From: Gammaproteobacteria bacterium
GTDB lineage: Bacteria > Pseudomonadota > Gammaproteobacteria > Pseudomonadales > Porticoccaceae
Direction: 5' to 3'
NCBI GenBank assembly: GCA_003235325.1
Contig: QJWQ01000127.1
Location: 1-37,433, forward strand
Length of the DNA: 37,433 nucleotides
Shown here piece by piece: positions 2,007 through 36,537 of this stretch. The position numbers were made by a program, and so were the translations under genes. Under the pieces are notes generated by a model that saw nothing but the letters and a program-made list of their open reading frames with translations, made no database searches and was not told the DNA's origin. Position 1 is the first letter of the stretch. The number at the start of each line of letters is the position of its first letter.

Positions 2007-3818
2007 TCATTGCTCGAACCGACGAATTACTGCCAGAAACCGGTCACCGTATTTGTCCAGCTTGGCTTCGCCGACACCGTTGATGTGCAACAGCTCGCCG
2101 CGGGTCGTGGGCCGCAATTCCATCATTTCCATCAGGGTGGCGTCGTGAAATACCCGGTAGGGGGCGATACCGTCCTCGTCGGCAATCTGTTTGCGCTCCT
2201 GTCGCAGGGCATCCCAGATGTCCCTGTCATTCTGGTCGATATGGCCATTGCGCTGACTTCTGCTGGCGCGGGTTGGCGTTTCCGGTTCGGTGTCCTGGCG
2301 CAGGTTGAGAGACTGTTCGCCGCGCAACAGGGGCCGCGCCGCCTCCGTCAGCTTCAGGGCGCCAAATGCGCTGGCGTCGGACATCAGGTAACCGCGCACC
2401 AGTAATTGGCGAATCACCGACCGCCAGCGTTGTTCACTCAGGTCCTTGCCGATGCCAAAAGTGCTGAGCCGCTGGTGGCCGTGCTGCCGGACCTTGTCCG
2501 ATTCCCTGCCCAGCAGGACATCGAGCACATGGACGGCGCCAAAACGCTGGCCACTGCGGTAGACACAGGACAGCAATTTCCGGGCGGCCAGGGTTGCGTC
2601 CCAGGTGGCGGGAGGCGCCAGGCAGGTATCGCAGTTGCCGCAGGGGGCATCCAGGGTTTCGCTGAAATAGCCCAGCAGGGATTGGCGGCGGCAATCGGTG
2701 GTTTCGCACCAGCCCAGCAGGGCGTCGAGCTTGCCGCGTTCGTTGCGCTTGAAGCGCTCATCGGCATCTCCCTGCTCCACCATCTGGGACAACTGCACCA
2801 CGTCATTGAGGCCGTAAACCATCCAGGCATCGGCAGGCTCGCCGTCGCGGCCGGCCCGGCCGGTCTCCTGGTAATAGGCTTCCATGCTCTTGGGCAAATC
2901 CATATGGACCACAAAGCGCACGTCCGGCTTGTCGATGCCCATGCCAAAAGCAATGGTGGCGACGATGATGACGCCGTCCTCCGCCAGGAAACGCTCCAGG
3001 TTGTGTTGTCGCAAGCTGGCGGGCAGGCCGGCGTGATAGGGCAGTGCGGTGAGGCTCCGTGCCGTCAGCCAGGCCGCCAGGGCCTCCACCCGCTTGCGGG
3101 ACAGGCAATAAATGATGCCGGCGCAGTCCCGGTGCCGGGTCAGGAATCGGATCAGCTGCTTGCGCCCGTCCTGCCGGGCCTGGACGCTGTAGCGGATATT
3201 GGGCCGGTCAAAACTGTTGACGAATTGTGCCGGGTTGTCCAGGGCCAGCCGCTCGACGATCTCGACCCGGGTGGCGGGCGTGGCGGTGGCCGTCAGAGCC
3301 ATGCGCGGTACCCGGGGGAATACCCGGCGCAACTGGTCCAGCAGCAGGTAGTCGGCGCGAAAATCGTGACCCCACTGGGAGACGCAGTGGGCCTCGTCGA
3401 TGGCGATCAGGGAGATGTCAAACCGGGCCAGCCAGTCCAGGGTGCGGGGTTGCATCAGCCGTTCCGGGGCGACATAGAGCAGGTCAATATCGCCCCGGCT
3501 GATGTCCGACGCAAGTTGCTGCCGGGTATTTTCATCAAGGGTTGAGTTGAGAAAGGCGGCATTGATCCCCAGTTGCTTCAGTGCCGATACCTGGTCCTGC
3601 ATCAGTGCGATCAGGGGCGAGACGACGATGCCCATGCCCGGCCGCACCAGGGCCGGAATCTGGTAGCACAGGCTCTTGCCGCCGCCGGTGGGCATCAACA
3701 CCAGGCTGTCACGTCCCGCCAGGGCGCTGCCGATGATGGCTTCCTGATTGCTGCGAAATCTGCTGTAGCCGTAAGTGTGTTGCAGCAGGTGTCTGGCCTT
3801 GTCCAGCACGTCGATCAA
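2007..3818 (-). CDS. recQ: ATP-dependent DNA helicase RecQ
   Basis: A 603-residue superfamily 2 3'-5' DNA helicase of full RecQ length. Walker A MPTGGGKS is at residues 42-49 and the DEAH box (IAIDEAHCVSQWG) around 141-144. The second RecA lobe contains DKPDVRFVVHMDLPKS and YYQETGRAGRDG. The RecQ C-terminal zinc site (CRRQSLLGYF then CGNCDTC) follows, then a winged helix and a C-terminal HRDC domain (TTRGELLHINGVGEAKLDKYG). RecQ unwinds recombination and stalled-fork intermediates, including in the RecF pathway. The start is a TTG whose last two bases overlap the stop of the upstream MFS gene (TTGA), with GAGGAG just before it. Translational coupling with that gene is likely. A GTG three codons downstream is an alternative start. 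Confidence 0.97.
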   Translation of the reverse strand: MIDVLDKARHLLQHTYGYSRFRSNQEAIIGSALAGRDSLVLMPTGGGKSLCYQIPALVRPGMGIVVSPLIALMQDQVSALKQLGINAAFLNSTLDENTRQQLASDISRGDIDLLYVAPERLMQPRTLDWLARFDISLIAIDEAHCVSQWGHDFRADYLLLDQLRRVFPRVPRMALTATATPATRVEIVERLALDNPAQFVNSFDRPNIRYSVQARQDGRKQLIRFLTRHRDCAGIIYCLSRKRVEALAAWLTARSLTALPYHAGLPASLRQHNLERFLAEDGVIIVATIAFGMGIDKPDVRFVVHMDLPKSMEAYYQETGRAGRDGEPADAWMVYGLNDVVQLSQMVEQGDADERFKRNERGKLDALLGWCETTDCRRQSLLGYFSETLDAPCGNCDTCLAPPATWDATLAARKLLSCVYRSGQRFGAVHVLDVLLGRESDKVRQHGHQRLSTFGIGKDLSEQRWRSVIRQLLVRGYLMSDASAFGALKLTEAARPLLRGEQSLNLRQDTEPETPTRASRSQRNGHIDQNDRDIWDALRQERKQIADEDGIAPYRVFHDATLMEMMELRPTTRGELLHINGVGEAKLDKYGDRFLAVIRRFEQ

Positions 3819-5068
3819 CGCTCCTCGAGTTCCAGTTCGGACGCCGGGGCGGGTTCTTCCGGCCGGTAGGAGCGGAAGATCAGGCCGACGGCGACAACAC
3901 CATAGATGCCCATGGCCCAGAACATCCGGGTGGCGTTCCAGCCGCTGTCGATCAGGAAGCCCAGCAACACCGGCGAGGTGGAAGAGGCCAGTACCATCAG
4001 GGACGTGATCAGCGATCGTATCGACCCCAGCCGTTCAACCCCATAGATTTCGGCCCACAGGGAACCGGTTATCGGCCCGGAAAAACCGATCGTGATGCCA
4101 AACAGGATCAGCATCGACATCGCTGCCCAATCGCCTCCCAGCCAGCCTGCCAGCCACAACCCCAGGGTCATGGGCAGACAGTAGAGCCGCAGCATGTGCG
4201 GTGAGCCCAGGCGATCTACTAACAGCCCCGAAACCAGGGAACTGAGCCAGTGAATGACACCGTAGGCGACAAAACAGCTGGCGAACCAGCCCGGACTCCA
4301 GCTCTTCTGGGCCAGGAACCAGCCCTGGTGAATAAAAACCCCGGTGAGGACAAAGGGCCCGAGCATCAAGCCCGGCAAGGCCAGCCAGAAACGCCGGTCC
4401 GCCAATAGCTGCCGGCGGCCGCCGCCGTCGGATCGGGATGTCGCATCGCCGGGATGGTATCCGGACTCGCTGCGCACTTGGCCGTAGCGGGCCCGGTGCA
4501 GCAGCCACCAGACCAGTGGCAGGTAGAGCAGCGGCACACCGGCAGCAATGACCCACCAGCTATTCTGCCAGCCGATGGCGGCGATCAGTGCCACTGCCAG
4601 TCCCGGCAGCAGCATTTCGCCCACGGGTACACCGCTGGTGGCGATACTGATGGCCTTGCCCCGATTGACTGCGAAATAGCGGGCCATGGTGGTGGTGGCG
4701 GTATGGGGCAACAGGCCCTGGCCAAACAGTCGCAGCAGGAAGAAGCCGATGGTCAGGCCAGCCACCGTCTGGACATTGGCCAGGGTCATGGCTGCCGACA
4801 TCAGCCCCAGGGCGACCAGGGTCGCGAACAGGCGCAAAGGTGTCCGGTCCAGCAGGCCACCCACCAGCATGATGGTCATTCCGCTGGCCAGGGTGGCCAG
4901 GGAATAGGCGGAACCGTAGGCCGCCGCTGTCAAGCCGAGGCCCTGCTGGATGCTGACGCCGAACCAGGAAACAAAAAAGGACTGGCCGAAATTACCCCAG
5001 AAAACCGTCAGGAAGCCGAAAGCCAGCATTGGCCAGTCCCTGGCCAGGAAAGAGAGGTATTGTTTCAA
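3815..5068 (-). CDS. Major facilitator superfamily transporter
   Basis: About 417 residues with the 12-helix hydrophobic profile of an MFS permease. The first helix begins just after MLAFGFLTVFWGNFGQSFF; there is a basic loop between helices 2 and 3 (GGLLDRTPLRLFATL) and a charged central loop near residues 190-215. It resembles the monocarboxylate/oxalate-antiporter-like MFS branch, but the substrate cannot be read from sequence. I place the start at the TTG at 5068, which follows AGG by 7 nt and lies about 40 nt after a perfect TATAAT; an upstream TTG at 5128 keeps the frame open, but that TATAAT falls inside the extension. The gene overlaps recQ by 4 bp, so the two are probably cotranscribed. 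Confidence 0.85.
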   Translation of the reverse strand: MKQYLSFLARDWPMLAFGFLTVFWGNFGQSFFVSWFGVSIQQGLGLTAAAYGSAYSLATLASGMTIMLVGGLLDRTPLRLFATLVALGLMSAAMTLANVQTVAGLTIGFFLLRLFGQGLLPHTATTTMARYFAVNRGKAISIATSGVPVGEMLLPGLAVALIAAIGWQNSWWVIAAGVPLLYLPLVWWLLHRARYGQVRSESGYHPGDATSRSDGGGRRQLLADRRFWLALPGLMLGPFVLTGVFIHQGWFLAQKSWSPGWFASCFVAYGVIHWLSSLVSGLLVDRLGSPHMLRLYCLPMTLGLWLAGWLGGDWAAMSMLILFGITIGFSGPITGSLWAEIYGVERLGSIRSLITSLMVLASSTSPVLLGFLIDSGWNATRMFWAMGIYGVVAVGLIFRSYRPEEPAPASELELEER

Positions 5069-28829: not shown

Positions 28830-30272
28830 TCAGGACTTGCCGTTGCCCTGCTTGCCGGAGGGGCTAGCGTACTGGTCGTTCAGGCTTTGTACCAGGTGAT
28901 CCGCGTCCGCCAGGATCTGCTCCATCCGCCTTGCCCGCCGCCAGGTCCAGCCCCGTGGCTTGGTGGAACTGAGGAAACTCCACCAGGCATTGACATTATG
29001 GGAAAAAGCCTTCAATAGTTTGTCGCGATCGTCGCCGAGGGACTTGTCCCTAGACAGGGTCTTGAGCACCCATTTCCCGGCCACGGTACGCAATTTGCCG
29101 TGGATCAGTACTATCGCCACCAAAAAAACCCCGGCAATGACAAACTGAAAGGCCGGGTCAAGATCGGCAAAAGGCGACAGGCGAAATCCCTCCCAGTAGT
29201 CGCCCTGCACTGTCCACCACAGGAAAATCGCCAGAAACAACGCCAGCACACTGCCGCTCAAAATGGCCGTTCGACGGCGCCATAATCTGCGGGCCCGGGT
29301 CAGTTTAGGCACCAGGTCGTCGCGAATATGCTTGGCGGTCTTTTCGAGCAATCCGACGATGCGGTAGGCCCTCTCCACTTCGACCTGACGGATACGCGCT
29401 TCGATCTCCGCGATATCTTCATCCCGTTTGCGTTCCAGTCGCTCCCGGACGCGGTCGTCCGCCACCTGCACTGCGACATCCTTGGCGTAGGTTCGATAGA
29501 ATCGTCCCGCCGTGAGACCGTGCTGGGCCAACGCCCGCTGCCAGGCGGCAACCACGTCTTCCGGATTGTCTTCTCGGGCGGTATTGTCAATCTGGTTGAG
29601 GATATACAGAAACTTGTTCGAATCCGGGCGCTTGACCGTATTGGTGACCAGGTGATCCAGGGTGTCACGCATCGCCCCCGGTTCCGGATGTCGGGCGTCG
29701 AAAAACACCAGGACCAGATCGGATAAATCAATGATGTGGTCGGTAATCAGCAAAGTCGAGTCGCGCTGCTTGTCGGCGTCAAAGCCGGGGGAGTCAATCA
29801 AAATCTTGCCCCGCAGGGGTTCGGCGCTGGCCGTTTTCAATTGCAGATACGAGTCGATGCGACGCCCCTCACCGGCGGCTCCTTCTTCAATGCTGCGACT
29901 GATCTGGTAAAACGGAAATCTCGGGTCGCTGTCCAGAGCCAGGCCCGGCAGGGCGGCGCCGGACTCCTTGGTGCCGTAGCAGACCACGGTGAACTTGTCA
30001 TCCACTGCCTGGTTGCCTGTGCGCTGCAGGTCCTGGCCGACATACTGGTTCATGAACGTGGATTTGCCCGCGGAAAAGGTACCCAACAGGGAAATCACCG
30101 GCCACCAACTCACCCGGGTCGCATAGGAGTCATCGGCCGACATCAAGCCCAGAGCGCGGGCTATGGTATCGAGCCGGGTAAAACTGCTGACACAACCGGC
30201 CAGAACCGGGTTCTCCCGCAGCAAGTGTTGCTCAAGTCGTTTTACACGCTCCTTGACAGGATTAGTAGCCAT
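28830..30272 (-). CDS. Dynamin-like/EHD-like GTPase with membrane anchor
   Basis: A 480-residue dynamin-superfamily GTPase. The P-loop is GTFSAGKSTF (about residue 65), the switch I region lies in TGNQAVDDKFTVVCYGTK, the DxxG motif is DSPGFDADKQRDS and the nucleotide-specificity motif is LNQIDNTARED. A helical stalk region (about 270-320) follows, then two membrane segments (SGSVLALFLAIFLWW and FVIAGVFLVAIVLIH). Bacterial dynamin-like proteins remodel or protect membranes. The membrane hairpin suggests it works at the inner membrane. The ATG at 30272 is chosen because GAGAGGG lies just upstream; an in-frame ATG 24 bp earlier has no site. Confidence 0.88.
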   Translation of the reverse strand: MATNPVKERVKRLEQHLLRENPVLAGCVSSFTRLDTIARALGLMSADDSYATRVSWWPVISLLGTFSAGKSTFMNQYVGQDLQRTGNQAVDDKFTVVCYGTKESGAALPGLALDSDPRFPFYQISRSIEEGAAGEGRRIDSYLQLKTASAEPLRGKILIDSPGFDADKQRDSTLLITDHIIDLSDLVLVFFDARHPEPGAMRDTLDHLVTNTVKRPDSNKFLYILNQIDNTAREDNPEDVVAAWQRALAQHGLTAGRFYRTYAKDVAVQVADDRVRERLERKRDEDIAEIEARIRQVEVERAYRIVGLLEKTAKHIRDDLVPKLTRARRLWRRRTAILSGSVLALFLAIFLWWTVQGDYWEGFRLSPFADLDPAFQFVIAGVFLVAIVLIHGKLRTVAGKWVLKTLSRDKSLGDDRDKLLKAFSHNVNAWWSFLSSTKPRGWTWRRARRMEQILADADHLVQSLNDQYASPSGKQGNGKS

Positions 30273-30650
30273 GGTGTCCCTCTCGATTGAAGGCATTTAG
30301 CATAGAGCCCAGCCTGGGCATTGTCTACTTGGTGGCCCCCTGTTTGCGACAAAGAGGAAAGATGGGTGGGGCTGAATGTTGGTTTGATTGTAGCGGTCTG
30401 AAAAACCCGTAAAACCCGGTGTGATTTTGCGTTACGATGGTGCGCGGGAGACCGTGTCTGGCTGCAGCGAGGGGTTTTGTTCGCCGCCTGCCGGTGCATT
30501 TTGCAGGTGCCCCACTGTGGGACTGCCCGGCGGTGACTGTCGCTAACCGGCCGAATTTTTACTGAAATGATCGAAGCAAAGTGGCTGGCCCAGCCGGGAA
30601 GGTTTCACCTCGCGACCTGCCCTGCGTTTTCCGAAACCAGGAGTCAACTG
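30273..30650. other. Divergent intergenic region, dynamin-like and hydrolase genes
   Basis: This 378-bp gap must carry two divergent promoters. A 13-nt inverted repeat GCCCAGCCTGGGC lies at 30307-30319, close to the dynamin-like start, and CCCACTGTGGG lies further right near 30511. No ORF with a plausible ribosome-binding site, RNA gene or clear sigma-70 promoter was identified. Confidence 0.4.
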
Positions 30651-31714: not shown

Positions 31715-32878
31715 TCAGTACAGCCACCGGTTTGAACGCATGGGCAGTGACAGCGTGATCGACAGGTCGTCGGCGTCATTCGTCAATCCGATTCCCACAG
31801 ACAGATTCACCAGCGTGCCCGGTGCGAGCAGGGTTGAACCACCCAGTATCAGGGTGCCGAAGGTGCGGTCGCTGCCATCGATCTTGTTGCCGGACAGTTC
31901 GGTTTCCTGCTGGTAGGCACCGGCAATGAGGAGCCGCAGGGACGTTTCCGGGCTGAGTGCCAGGAAGCCGCCGAAGTTGGCGGCCAGGGTCGCGCCGGGC
32001 TGGACCTGGTCCTGCTCGAAGCTGTGTTCGTAGGACAGCCCGCCGACGAAGGCAATGGGGTCCTGCCGCTTGATGGCCGTGATCGACCCCTGAAGTTCGT
32101 TGAAGCCGCCGCCGAGGGCGACATTGCCGTCCCGCTGCTCGCCGGTATCGGTATCCCAGGTTATACGCCCCACCAGGTCCGGGAGCCACAGGCGTTCGCG
32201 CAACAGGGTTTTTGCCAGGCCGACACGCAGATCCCCGAGACCTGACCCCGACACGCTCGAGGCGCCGGTCGGTGCAAAACCGAGATTGGTCACGGTCTCG
32301 ATGTCACGCCACCGGTAGGGAAGGCCGATTTCCAGTTGGGTGTCCCAGGGCAGCCCCAGGCGCAGGGCCAGATCCGCCGTGAAATTGTCAGCGTTGCGTT
32401 CCATCTCACTGGCAAAGACTTCGTCCCCGTTCATGACGAAGCCGGGCGTCGAATCCTCGCTTCGGGAGTAGGTGAGACGCGGCTCAATTTCCAGCGCTCC
32501 CGAGGGCAGGAGTAGCAACCCTTCCCGGGTCAGAGATCGTTCCAGGGCCCTTTCCGCAGCGCCTTCCTCGACAACCACTGTGCCTGGAGCCCCCGCCTTA
32601 CCCTGGGTAATTTCCGCTTCCGATTCCCCTTCCAAGGGCGCCGGGACCTCTCCCTGATCCCCCGTTGCGGCCACCGGTTCCGTTGTCGGGGGTTGGACGC
32701 CAACCCGTCGCTCCAGGGCTTCAACCCGTTCGAGAAGCTCGAGAATGACCATGTCGCGCTGCTTTACCGCGCGCTCCAGATCGCGTACACGCTCGTCGTC
32801 TGCCTGTGCTGCGGCGGCAAGCACTGTCAGCGCAACGATGGCTAGGCTGGTCTGCAAATATCTCGACGTCTTCTGCAT
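31715..32878 (-). CDS. Outer-membrane beta-barrel with N-terminal coiled coil (FapF-like)
   Basis: A 387-residue protein. A signal peptide ends AAAAQA, and a periplasmic segment DDERVRDLERAVKQRDMVIL and onward has strong heptads (a trimeric coiled coil is possible). A Pro/Glu-rich linker leads to a barrel of alternating hydrophobic/polar strands from about residue 135 to the end, closing with LSITLSLPMRSNRWLY. A periplasmic coiled coil followed by a barrel is the architecture of FapF, the exporter of Pseudomonas functional amyloid. The C39-like peptidase gene ends 25 bp upstream. The ATG at 32878 follows GGGGGA. It could also be a transporter barrel of another kind. Confidence 0.75.
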   Translation of the reverse strand: MQKTSRYLQTSLAIVALTVLAAAAQADDERVRDLERAVKQRDMVILELLERVEALERRVGVQPPTTEPVAATGDQGEVPAPLEGESEAEITQGKAGAPGTVVVEEGAAERALERSLTREGLLLLPSGALEIEPRLTYSRSEDSTPGFVMNGDEVFASEMERNADNFTADLALRLGLPWDTQLEIGLPYRWRDIETVTNLGFAPTGASSVSGSGLGDLRVGLAKTLLRERLWLPDLVGRITWDTDTGEQRDGNVALGGGFNELQGSITAIKRQDPIAFVGGLSYEHSFEQDQVQPGATLAANFGGFLALSPETSLRLLIAGAYQQETELSGNKIDGSDRTFGTLILGGSTLLAPGTLVNLSVGIGLTNDADDLSITLSLPMRSNRWLY

Positions 32879-32903
32879 ATGGTCCCCCGGATTCCTGGCG
32901 TAA

Positions 32904-33551
32904 TCAGCGCAATACAACAAAGTCCAGCGCCCGCGCCGACAGTTGGCCCGGTAGCGCCAGCGTTCCCGATTTCGTCACGACAAAACCGACGCGGGCAATA
33001 TCCTGGTATTCGATCCAGCCGTCAAGGAATTGGGGAATCGACAGGGTGACATTGCCGAAAGCAGGATCGGCGAGAAGCACTGTCCCCGAAGTGGCGCCGC
33101 GAAATACCACAAAATGCGGATAGCCCTGCAGGTTGACCGGCACGATAACGGGGGCCCGTTTGAGCAGGTCGGGCAGGGTGAGTTGCCCCAACCCTATGCC
33201 CTGGAAGCCGAGACCGTCAACAAACCGCTTGAGATCCAGAAGCGAAAAGCCCTGGCGCAGTCGCACCAGGTCAGGGTTCGCCAGGTATTCCTCCCGATTG
33301 ATCAGACCCAGGGCCACCGAGCGCTCGGTGACCGGCACGCCATGCTGGTAGCGCAGTACCGTCGCCAGCGCGGCGGCGGCGCAACTGAGTTCCCACTGCT
33401 GAAGCACGACGTTGTGCTGACGTATTTCGATCACGGACCGCACCCGCTTTGCGGCGTCTTCCGCTACCGCGGCAGCACCTTGGCAGATGCAGCTGATCAG
33501 TGCAAACCCGCACAATGTCGTGCGGATAATTGAAGCATTCGTCTGTTGCAT
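32904..33551 (-). CDS. Secreted C39-like cysteine peptidase (FapD-like)
   Basis: A 215-residue protein with a signal peptide ending near QGAAAVAEDA. The C39 catalytic set is in place: Gln at 51/52, Cys57 in QQWELSCAAAALATVLRY, His146 in YPHFVVF and Asp162 in LLADPAFG. C39 peptidases cleave after double-glycine leaders; the stand-alone secreted form FapD belongs to the Fap amyloid system. Here it lies between a gene for a small exported protein with a Gly-Gly motif and one for a coiled-coil outer-membrane barrel, on the same strand, so processing of that small protein is the obvious hypothesis. Confidence 0.85.
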   Translation of the reverse strand: MQQTNASIIRTTLCGFALISCICQGAAAVAEDAAKRVRSVIEIRQHNVVLQQWELSCAAAALATVLRYQHGVPVTERSVALGLINREEYLANPDLVRLRQGFSLLDLKRFVDGLGFQGIGLGQLTLPDLLKRAPVIVPVNLQGYPHFVVFRGATSGTVLLADPAFGNVTLSIPQFLDGWIEYQDIARVGFVVTKSGTLALPGQLSARALDFVVLR

Positions 33552-33626
33552 CGGCGTATCTCAGACCCATGTAGTGGCCGCGAGCGCGCCATGCTGACTG
33601 TTAATACGTACGGTGGGCGCGCCCAG

Positions 33627-33668
33627 CGGTTGACCCGGAAACCGGTAAGACGGTTCCCGGGTCAACCG
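33627..33668 (-). repeat. Strong hairpin after the small Gly-Gly gene
   Basis: CGGTTGACCCGG (33627-33638) pairs with CCGGGTCAACCG (33657-33668), with an inner ACCG/CGGT stem. It starts 9 nt past the stop codon and has no T-tract, which fits a processing or stability element that leaves more message for the small gene than for the peptidase. Its inner arms match the hairpin in the gene's 5' leader. Confidence 0.8.
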
Positions 33669-33677
33669 TACAGCCGC

Positions 33678-34013
33678 CTATTGATACCAGATTGCCGTGT
33701 AGGGGGTTTCGCCTGGATGATGGAACGGTCCTCCCGGATTGGAGCCGTCACCGCCACCATTGGTCGCCTGCACCGGCACTGTCAGAGAACCGGGAGCTGT
33801 GGCACCAATCGTGTAGTATTCACCTTCTACAAGGGTGCCGCCTTTGGGGCTATTGAGCACGCCGTCGGTCGTGATAACCGGGCAGACAAAGGAGCCGCCC
33901 GCGACCGAATCCATCTGCGCGTCGCTCAGGGCAACTGGCTCGGCGTATGCCCCTGCAGCGAGCAGGCAGCCGGCAAACATGGCTGAGGTCAATTTTATAG
34001 TCGCTTTGATCAT
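33678..34013 (-). CDS. Small exported protein with double-glycine motif
   Basis: A 111-residue protein. Residues 1-24 are a signal peptide (ending GAYA), followed at once by EPVALSDAQMDSVAGG with Gly39-Gly40, a motif like the end of double-glycine leaders. The remaining 71 residues have one cysteine (VCPVI), are rich in Gly/Thr/Pro with GGGDGSNPGGPFHH, and end in YTAIWYQ. Charged residues are few, as in proteins that assemble outside the cell. The ATG follows GGAGG by 8 nt. It is upstream of, and in line with, the C39-like peptidase and barrel genes and is probably their substrate. Confidence 0.75.
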   Translation of the reverse strand: MIKATIKLTSAMFAGCLLAAGAYAEPVALSDAQMDSVAGGSFVCPVITTDGVLNSPKGGTLVEGEYYTIGATAPGSLTVPVQATNGGGDGSNPGGPFHHPGETPYTAIWYQ

Positions 34014-34108: not shown

Positions 34109-34443
34109 GATTACTCCTGGGGCATCCGGCAGGCATCACGAATTTGTAACAAAAGTATCACGTTGATGGCGTCCTCAATAACCACTTGCAATGTCTCGTC
34201 CAGCCGCCCATGAGAATGGCTTGTCATGCTTTTTAGCCTTTGCCTGCCTTTAATGATTGGCTTATCAATGAGACTGAAGGCGTTTGGAAATACCATTGGA
34301 GCGGCCTGGTCGAGGCCTGCGGGGAAAGGCGGTTGAAATGTAATTAAGGAAACTCTGATTAATTAACCCGGCGCACTGCTGTCCGGTTAAAACTTTGATA
34401 AAGACTAATTTTCGTATAGCTCACAAATACTTACAGCCATTTT
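34109..34443. other. Non-coding gap before the IS remnant
   Basis: No convincing gene is seen. The stretch has several AT-rich runs, an imperfect hairpin (TTAACCCGG about 34363 with CCGGTTAA about 34383), and an 18-nt sequence at 34420-34437 that recurs with one mismatch at 27176-27193. Confidence 0.4.
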
Positions 34444-34812
34444 AGGGTGTCCCCGATTTGAACGCGAATAAGGCACAACCCCCTTCTTTTCGACCTTTGG
34501 TGGAGAGGGCTGGATGAATACAGGCAAGACGTTGTTCGCGCAGATCATGGATTTTCTCCCGTGGAAAACGTTTCATCGAATCGTAGACCGCTACGATGGG
34601 GATCACAGAGTTCGCGCGTTTCCGTGTGCCGAACACTTTCGAGTCCTGGCGTTTGCACAATTGACCTACCGGGAAAGCTTGCGCGATATCGAAGCGTGTC
34701 TCTCGACGCAGTCCGCCAAGCTGTACCACATGGGTATCCGATCTCCGATCAAACGCTCTACGTTGGCCGATGCCAACGAGCGAAGGGACTGGAGAATCTA
34801 CGCCGAGTTCGA
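34444..34812 (+). mobile_element. IS4-family insertion sequence, left-end remnant
   Basis: The left terminus (AGGGTGTCCCCGATTTGAAC at about 34444) and the first 99 codons of the transposase remain; the rest of the element, including its catalytic part and right end, is gone. The break coincides with the start of a second, MITE-like sequence. Confidence 0.75.
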
Positions 34813-34912
34813 AATAAGCAGAATAAGCAGGGTCAGGTCCAACTTTTCACTACTTTTCAGGCCGACCAGCAGAGATGGGCAGGACTCAAATATGAAACAG
34901 AATCAAAGTTGA
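34514..34912 (+). pseudogene. Truncated IS4-family transposase (DUF4372 N-terminus)
   Basis: Residues 1-99 match the N-terminal DUF4372 domain of IS4-type transposases: MNTGKTLFAQIMDFLPWKTF, then LAFAQLTYRESLRDIEACL, then KLYHMGIRSPIKRSTLADAN. After RDWRIYAEF the family sequence stops and the frame runs on through unrelated DNA for 33 codons. The DDE catalytic residues, which lie in the missing C-terminal three quarters of a roughly 380-residue protein, are absent, so it cannot transpose. Confidence 0.85.
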
Positions 34913-35864: not shown

Positions 35865-35930
35865 TGCTCGGGGGATCCATAAGGGGTGTCGCACTTAACC
35901 CGTCGTATAATTTCACTGCAAGGAGAGTTT

Positions 35931-36537
35931 ATGCCATTCACTCCATTTCACATGGGGCCAGGTATCGCCATTAAGGCGGTACTACAAGGCAGCTTCAGCC
36001 TGATGGTAGCGGTTGGTCACAATTCATTTGGGTATCCAGCCTTTAATCGTGCTGGTTACCGGTGAGGGGCATCTGCATGGATTCAGTCATACCTATGCGG
36101 GCGCCACACTCCTGGCAGTGTTCTCAGCGCTTACGGGCAAGTACCTGGCGGCGGTTGGTTGTTATGTGCTGGGACCCAATCGGCAGTGGCTGGTAAAGAT
36201 CTCCTGGCGGGTTACTTTCCTGTCCGCATTTATTGGCGCCTACAGCCATGTTTTACTTGATAGCCTCATGCACGCCGATCTGGAACCGTTTTACCCGTTT
36301 ACCACAAGTAACCGGTTTCTCGGCTTGATTTCAGTCGCGGCATTACACAAGCTTTGCCAGTACAGTGGTGCCATTGGCGGGCTGCTGTATTTTGCAATTC
36401 CGTGGCTGCAAAACCCCGGTAGCAGGTTTAACAAGCGGGACCGCATAGCTCCCCCGATATCGTGGATATCTTGCGATAATCCATTAACTTACCCTGCATG
36501 GCCGGGCAAAGAGTCCGCCTGCCCGGCAGCAGGATAG
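35931..36537 (+). pseudogene. Frameshifted membrane-bound hydrolase-like (DUF4184/YdjM-type) gene
   Basis: The gene starts at the ATG at 35931 after AAGGAG and reads MPFTPFHMGPGIAIKAVLQG, a typical start for this membrane protein family. After SLMV the frame changes: the next frame reads GWSQFI, and a third gives IQPLIVLVTGEGHLHGFSHT and continues through SHVLLDSLMHADLEPFYPF to a divergent tail. Two single-base losses near 36009 and 36030 would explain this. The His/Asp motifs of the family (HGFSH, SHVLLD) survive. The family is predicted to be a membrane-bound metal-dependent hydrolase of unknown substrate. Sequencing error is the alternative explanation. Confidence 0.7.

Follow-up and report, generated by a model that had tools for sequence, protein, structure and literature searches.

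A compact relative of the Fap and Fil systems, built around a single small substrate, is probably encoded by three adjacent genes of a gammaproteobacterial genome: the substrate would cross the inner membrane by Sec, be trimmed by a periplasmic C39 peptidase and be exported through an outer-membrane barrel, in a manner that is probably inducible by oxidants. The window, that is the whole stretch of DNA analysed here, comprises 37,433 nucleotides. All three open reading frames were found on the minus strand where a sequence-only reading of the same DNA had placed them, in the order substrate (34013–33678), C39 (33551–32904) and barrel (32878–31715), with intergenic gaps of 126 nt and 25 nt. The features of this locus are the following:

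33678–34013, minus strand: substrate gene, encoding a 111-residue pre-pro-protein (P0001) whose family is conserved in seven loci
33942–34013, minus strand: predicted Sec signal peptide, residues 1–24, AxA site AYA (read from the sequence)
33894–33941, minus strand: 16-residue pro-segment EPVALSDAQMDSVAGG with a double-glycine-type motif (alignment and degenerate DNA pattern)
33681–33893, minus strand: predicted mature product, 71 residues, 7.2 kDa, one invariant Cys (FVCPVI)
32904–33551, minus strand: secreted FapD-like C39 peptidase (P0002, 215 residues) with Cys57, His146, Asp162 and Gln51
31715–32878, minus strand: FapF-like outer-membrane protein (P0003, 387 residues) with signal peptide, RVEALE coiled coil and barrel
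34135–34162, minus strand: 11-bp-phased tandem array CGTGAT-N5-TGTTAC-N5-CGTGAT, resembling an OmpR-type operator
33628–33667, minus strand: very stable stem-loop without a T-tract between the substrate and C39 genes (folding)

Elsewhere in the window, an N-terminal fragment of a DUF4372 transposase upstream of the trio (34514–34912) suggests a mobile-element scar. One membrane-protein gene appears to be split over two overlapping frames at 35886–36537, possibly by a frameshift, and a GTPase of the dynamin family with predicted membrane segments is encoded at 28830–30296.

The smallest of the three proteins was described in the earlier reading as a signal-peptide protein with a motif just past the cleavage site, and this description holds: the AxA site occupies residues 22–24 and is followed by LSDAQMDSVAGG at residues 29–40. 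The mature tail is acidic and contains a single cysteine and no methionine. Leader and mature domain are both conserved among the relatives, which share FVCPVI, ATN, GSP/PGG and YTAI blocks; in one of them, L016, the cut site reads AAG rather than GG. The family found no match in Pfam, NCBIfam or the PDB. Searches among viral contigs returned no relatives of the substrate, and plasmids yielded no substrate match and only C39 relatives below 60% identity, none of which covered 80% of the query. AlphaFold2 provided no usable substrate fold, with a pLDDT of 33 for the single sequence and of 47, still low confidence, for the mature part modelled with six sequences.

The second protein combines a hydrophobic N-terminus of its own with a C39 domain (PF03412; 46.5 bits against a cut-off of 22, 4e-12). 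Gln51, Cys57, His146 and Asp162 are kept in all seven C39 sequences aligned, and with its Cys/His/Asp set intact, as the earlier reading had noted, the secreted peptidase may be active. The C39 relatives found in the PDB are bacteriocin-type exporters. Could the trio then be a Gram-negative bacteriocin or microcin exporter, with an antibacterial mature peptide? The C39 fold, the logic of a double-glycine leader and the small size of the secreted product are indeed what it shares with C39-ABC export. However, its peptidase is a separate and secreted protein, its substrate is Sec-signalled, and neither an ABC exporter nor a candidate immunity gene was seen in the unit. The substrate is moreover conserved between loci, its neighbours are of a stress type and matches to bacteriocin families are negligible (E 0.078), which together leave this explanation a small probability.

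In the third protein, a signal peptide is followed by a coiled coil, a linker and a barrel of the Phenol_MetA_deg/FapF type. Its Pfam match is to Phenol_MetA_deg (5e-7, above the cut-off), its best PDB matches are FapF crystal structures (1.3e-7), and NCBIfam connects it with FapF at 3e-14, albeit at 52.7 bits against a cut-off of 700 (a genuine FapF used as control scores 761). In profile-profile comparisons the trio barrels align with genuine FapF over their full length (5e-23) and with Fil-type barrels over the barrel only (2e-22). The FapF trimerisation motif R-h-x-x-h-E (PMC6173795) occurs as RVEALE at residue 51 and is kept in relatives; it is found in the trio barrels and genuine FapFs, but is absent in the Fil-type barrels tested. 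The earlier description of a coiled-coil-plus-barrel outer-membrane protein is thus borne out, and the barrel is of the FapF type rather than of an unrelated transporter family.

The Pfam assignment nevertheless opens another explanation, in which the substrate stays unexported, the role of the C39 peptidase is to activate a periplasmic protein and the barrel serves as an unrelated channel for hydrophobic compounds of the Phenol_MetA_deg/COG4313 type, a group described as uptake channels (PMC6173800). This is rather improbable given that NCBIfam and PDB matches group the barrel with FapF, that the trimerisation motif is present and that, across the phylum, such a barrel nearly always adjoins C39 relatives: FapD-like C39 genes occur in 39 of 399 genomes of the phylum sample, and the barrel is seldom missing next to them.

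How close is the trio to the known systems? With the Fap system of Pseudomonas (fapABCDEF) it shares a secreted FapD-like C39 peptidase and a FapF-like barrel with an N-terminal coiled coil and R-h-x-x-h-E, and FapE carries a comparable motif, L..(E)L...RG(K/R), after its signal peptide. Phylogenetic analysis of 60 C39 domains groups the trio peptidases in a clade of their own (100/99), which joins the clade of the Fap side as sister (94/90), while ten Fil-like sequences form a separate clade. Unlike Fap, the trio has a single small, non-repetitive substrate encoded upstream of the peptidase, and signals of stress-type regulation. The absence of FapA, FapB, FapC and FapE, which the earlier reading had claimed, holds genome-wide for FapE, since a FapE-like profile found no match in five trio genomes and scored 3.5e-116 in a control genome; for FapA, FapB and FapC it holds at this locus.

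With the putative pilus system Fil (filABCDEF; Acinetobacter and Pseudomonas relatives), the trio has in common the order of small substrate, C39 and barrel on one strand, and FilA-like (DUF6160) proteins carry a post-signal motif of their own, MDDxALSxVTGQ. However, the trio substrate is not a DUF6160 protein: only one of seven family members gave a match, and a weak one (E 0.15), while FilA-like controls matched at 2e-23 and 4e-27. The trio also differs in its separate C39 clade, in lacking FadL-like or FilE-like genes and in its trimerisation motif. Four Fil-like loci of the same GTDB order (L073, L074, L082 and L084) contain a DUF6160/FilA-like protein with MDDxALSxVTGQ, a C39 peptidase, a barrel, a FadL-like protein and further genes.

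Family scores place the trio outside both systems. P0002 reaches 94.6 bits against the FapD cut-off of 330 (genuine FapD control, 441.7) and 91.5 against the FilB cut-off of 475, and the barrel reaches 28.1 against the FilC cut-off of 630. These scores, far below the cut-offs for FapD, FapF, FilB and FilC, together with the lack of FapE in the trio genomes tested, argue for a variant that would work like Fap and Fil. Judged by its sequences, it is a variant beside Fap and apart from Fil-like systems, and a member of neither.

The kinship with Fap also raises the possibility of a reduced functional-amyloid system, whose small substrate would polymerise at the cell surface like FapC. The FapD/FapF-type machinery, the sister position of the C39 clade and a Gly/Thr/Pro-rich mature part (13 of 71 residues are Gly) would agree with this. 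Yet there is no enrichment in N or Q (3 Asn and 2 Gln among the 71 residues), the genome has no FapE, and, in line with the earlier remark that long amyloid repeats are missing, the substrate is free of repeats of the FapB/FapC kind and no gene of either type adjoins the trio. We therefore consider polymerisation unlikely, and return to the export of a single small product as the favoured explanation.

The trio is rare, but its arrangement is kept. Its conserved synteny, which had been proposed as a check, was found in five further loci (L002/L022, L011, L012, L013 and L015) that retain the order substrate-C39-barrel, and pieces at contig edges in L014/L016 and L017 agree with the pattern. L002/L022 belongs to a genome of the same GTDB family as the window, while L012, L013, L015 and L016 come from related alphaproteobacterial MAGs and are not independent; L011, a 7.4-kb contig labelled Bathyarchaeota with a trio of proteobacterial type, is probably mis-binned. 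The substrate profile (A1) detects 2 of 392 genomes in the order and 2 of 112 in the family. It is convincing only in the window's own genome within the 399-genome phylum sample, and strong in 2 of 385 genomes of the other class searched (G1098 and G1169, which, as their coordinates match, are apparently the genomes to which L012/L013 and L015 belong). Six further loci, L020 and L111–L115, were set aside on account of weak profile matches (E above 5e-4, mostly within long reading frames). Within the window's own 3.26-Mb genome the leader motif (degenerate DNA pattern), the C39 relative and the barrel relative each occur once. Because order and substrate are conserved and all three of these single-copy elements coincide here, the trio is more than a chance assembly.

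What might control such a unit? The phased array, (YGTKAYN5)x3, lies some 120 nt before the start of the substrate gene; its expectation in the window is 0.17 at up to two mismatches. At up to one mismatch it is the single hit in its own genome, and 747 kb of comparison loci gave no match. Exact three-unit arrays precede the substrate in L011, L012, L013, L015 and L016, and a degenerate one does so in L021. The pattern was defined after viewing these promoters; copies before the MsrAB gene, the Met-rich gene and the G098 regulator did not enter its definition. The first two are found in L015, where further arrays precede the MsrAB gene and the gene for a Met-rich lysine/aspartate repeat peptide (3331–3666); an OmpR-type regulator and a kinase are encoded downstream of the latter. 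A regulator/kinase pair in G098 also lies downstream of an array, here with one mismatch, and its kinase matches that of L015 over its full length. The window's own genome has a pair related to that of L015 (49% identity for the regulator and 30% for the kinase, sensor part included). Two side observations concern these contigs: the Met-rich secreted peptide (L015, 3278–3666) resembles the hypochlorite-scavenging peptides of Brucella and Azospira and has no NCBIfam match, and L021, which also holds a trio-type substrate, carries, at 3871–4699, Spond_N-domain genes preceded by an array with one mismatch.

Along the same lines, genes for MsrAB, MsrP/MsrQ or a sigma/NrsF pair lie directly upstream of the trio in L015, L016, L013 and L022. 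In L016 a kinase, MsrP and MsrQ come before the substrate, L013 has MsrB as a neighbour, and L022 has no array and instead an ECF sigma factor with NrsF just upstream. The neighbours in L012 are copper-resistance genes on the opposite strand, and the trio of the window itself has no Msr gene next to it. An ECF16-type promoter was also sought upstream of the substrate and discarded; it matched in L022 only, about as often as chance would predict. HOCl induces an NrsF-type pair in Brucella that governs both MsrQP and a Met-rich peptide (PMC8315932). This SigF/NrsF-Msr defence with its Met-rich peptide (Brucella bcrS/bcrXQP, Azospira, Caulobacter) resembles what the trio adjoins in related loci: NrsF/sigma, MsrAB, MsrP/MsrQ or a Met-rich lysine/aspartate repeat peptide (PMC8315932). 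It differs in that the published regulons compared make no mention of an export unit of this kind, and in that the trio product is predicted to leave the cell and, having no methionine, is not an oxidant sink of the Met type. A secreted redox- or metal-related role would fit the one conserved cysteine of the product, its predicted export and its regulatory company. From array and neighbours we infer that the trio may be an oxidant-inducible secretion unit within an apparent oxidative-stress regulon. This regulon and the match to the Fil gene order (filA-filB-filC) had been left out of the earlier account, which is otherwise supported.

A further regulatory element may lie within the unit. The intergenic stem-loop between substrate and C39 folds at -64.8 kcal/mol (z -4.6), and each of the seven loci folded has a stable structure at this position (z -2.8 to -6.3) despite different sequence. 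By stabilising the mRNA or terminating part of the transcripts, such a structure would suit a surplus of substrate over machinery.

Taken together, the route is best read as passage by Sec, trimming by C39 in the periplasm and export through the barrel. The 111-residue precursor would cross the inner membrane by Sec and lose its signal peptide. The periplasmic C39 peptidase would next read the LSxxQMDxV motif and cut after Gly-Gly, which would take off the 16-residue pro-segment, and the 7-kDa product would leave via a putatively trimeric FapF-like barrel. Expression would probably be driven in response to oxidants by an OmpR-family response regulator bound to the phased array, with an ECF sigma/NrsF pair likely in its place in one relative.

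The trio also bears on what periplasmic FapD-type peptidases cut. FapD acts in the periplasm and its cysteine is needed for the secretion of FapC, with its target unknown; FapE alone was found without N-terminal peptides (Rouse et al. 2017, PMC5557850). A review of 2018 again called the FapD substrate undetermined (PMC6173800). In a survey of genes directly downstream of a C39 gene, 28 of 38 rows show a post-signal motif L..(E)L...RG(G/K/R). The count includes two loci twice, and part of the misses stem from wrong reading frames or have a motif that is visible by eye. Most FapE-like proteins that adjoin FapD-like C39 genes (L025, L026, L029 and L061–L106) carry this motif, and the FapE of L089, which scores above its NCBIfam cut-off, reads LKDQELAQLRGK. 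In FapE-like proteins the motif is a candidate cleavage site that goes without mention in the cited Fap papers. An Acidithiobacillus plasmid, p5 (L024, 6.5 kb), encodes a FapE-like protein and a C39 peptidase whose gene is split, and no barrel was found on it.

The trio substrate has the textbook form of the motif, LSxxQMDxVxGG, and as a genuine FapE has a comparable one, the trio would offer the clearest candidate for what a periplasmic FapD-type peptidase cuts. These likenesses support, and do not prove, that periplasmic C39 enzymes read such post-signal leaders. More tentatively, one may picture a minimal Sec-C39-barrel route, separate from amyloid, whose small Cys-containing product is released within a regulon that responds to oxidants (HOCl/copper) and includes methionine-sulfoxide repair. 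On a wider view, FapE-like and FilA-like proteins would be recognised by FapD-type periplasmic peptidases through a post-signal leader, L..(E)L...(R/x)G(G/K/R).

If the regulatory evidence holds, a secretion route would be tied to oxidative-stress defence, a link that is apparently unreported. The substrate is small, its double-glycine leader is recognisable and it has only two partners, so that three genes could suffice to reconstitute both cleavage and export; the matching motif in FapE, in turn, offers a site to mutate in the Pseudomonas system.
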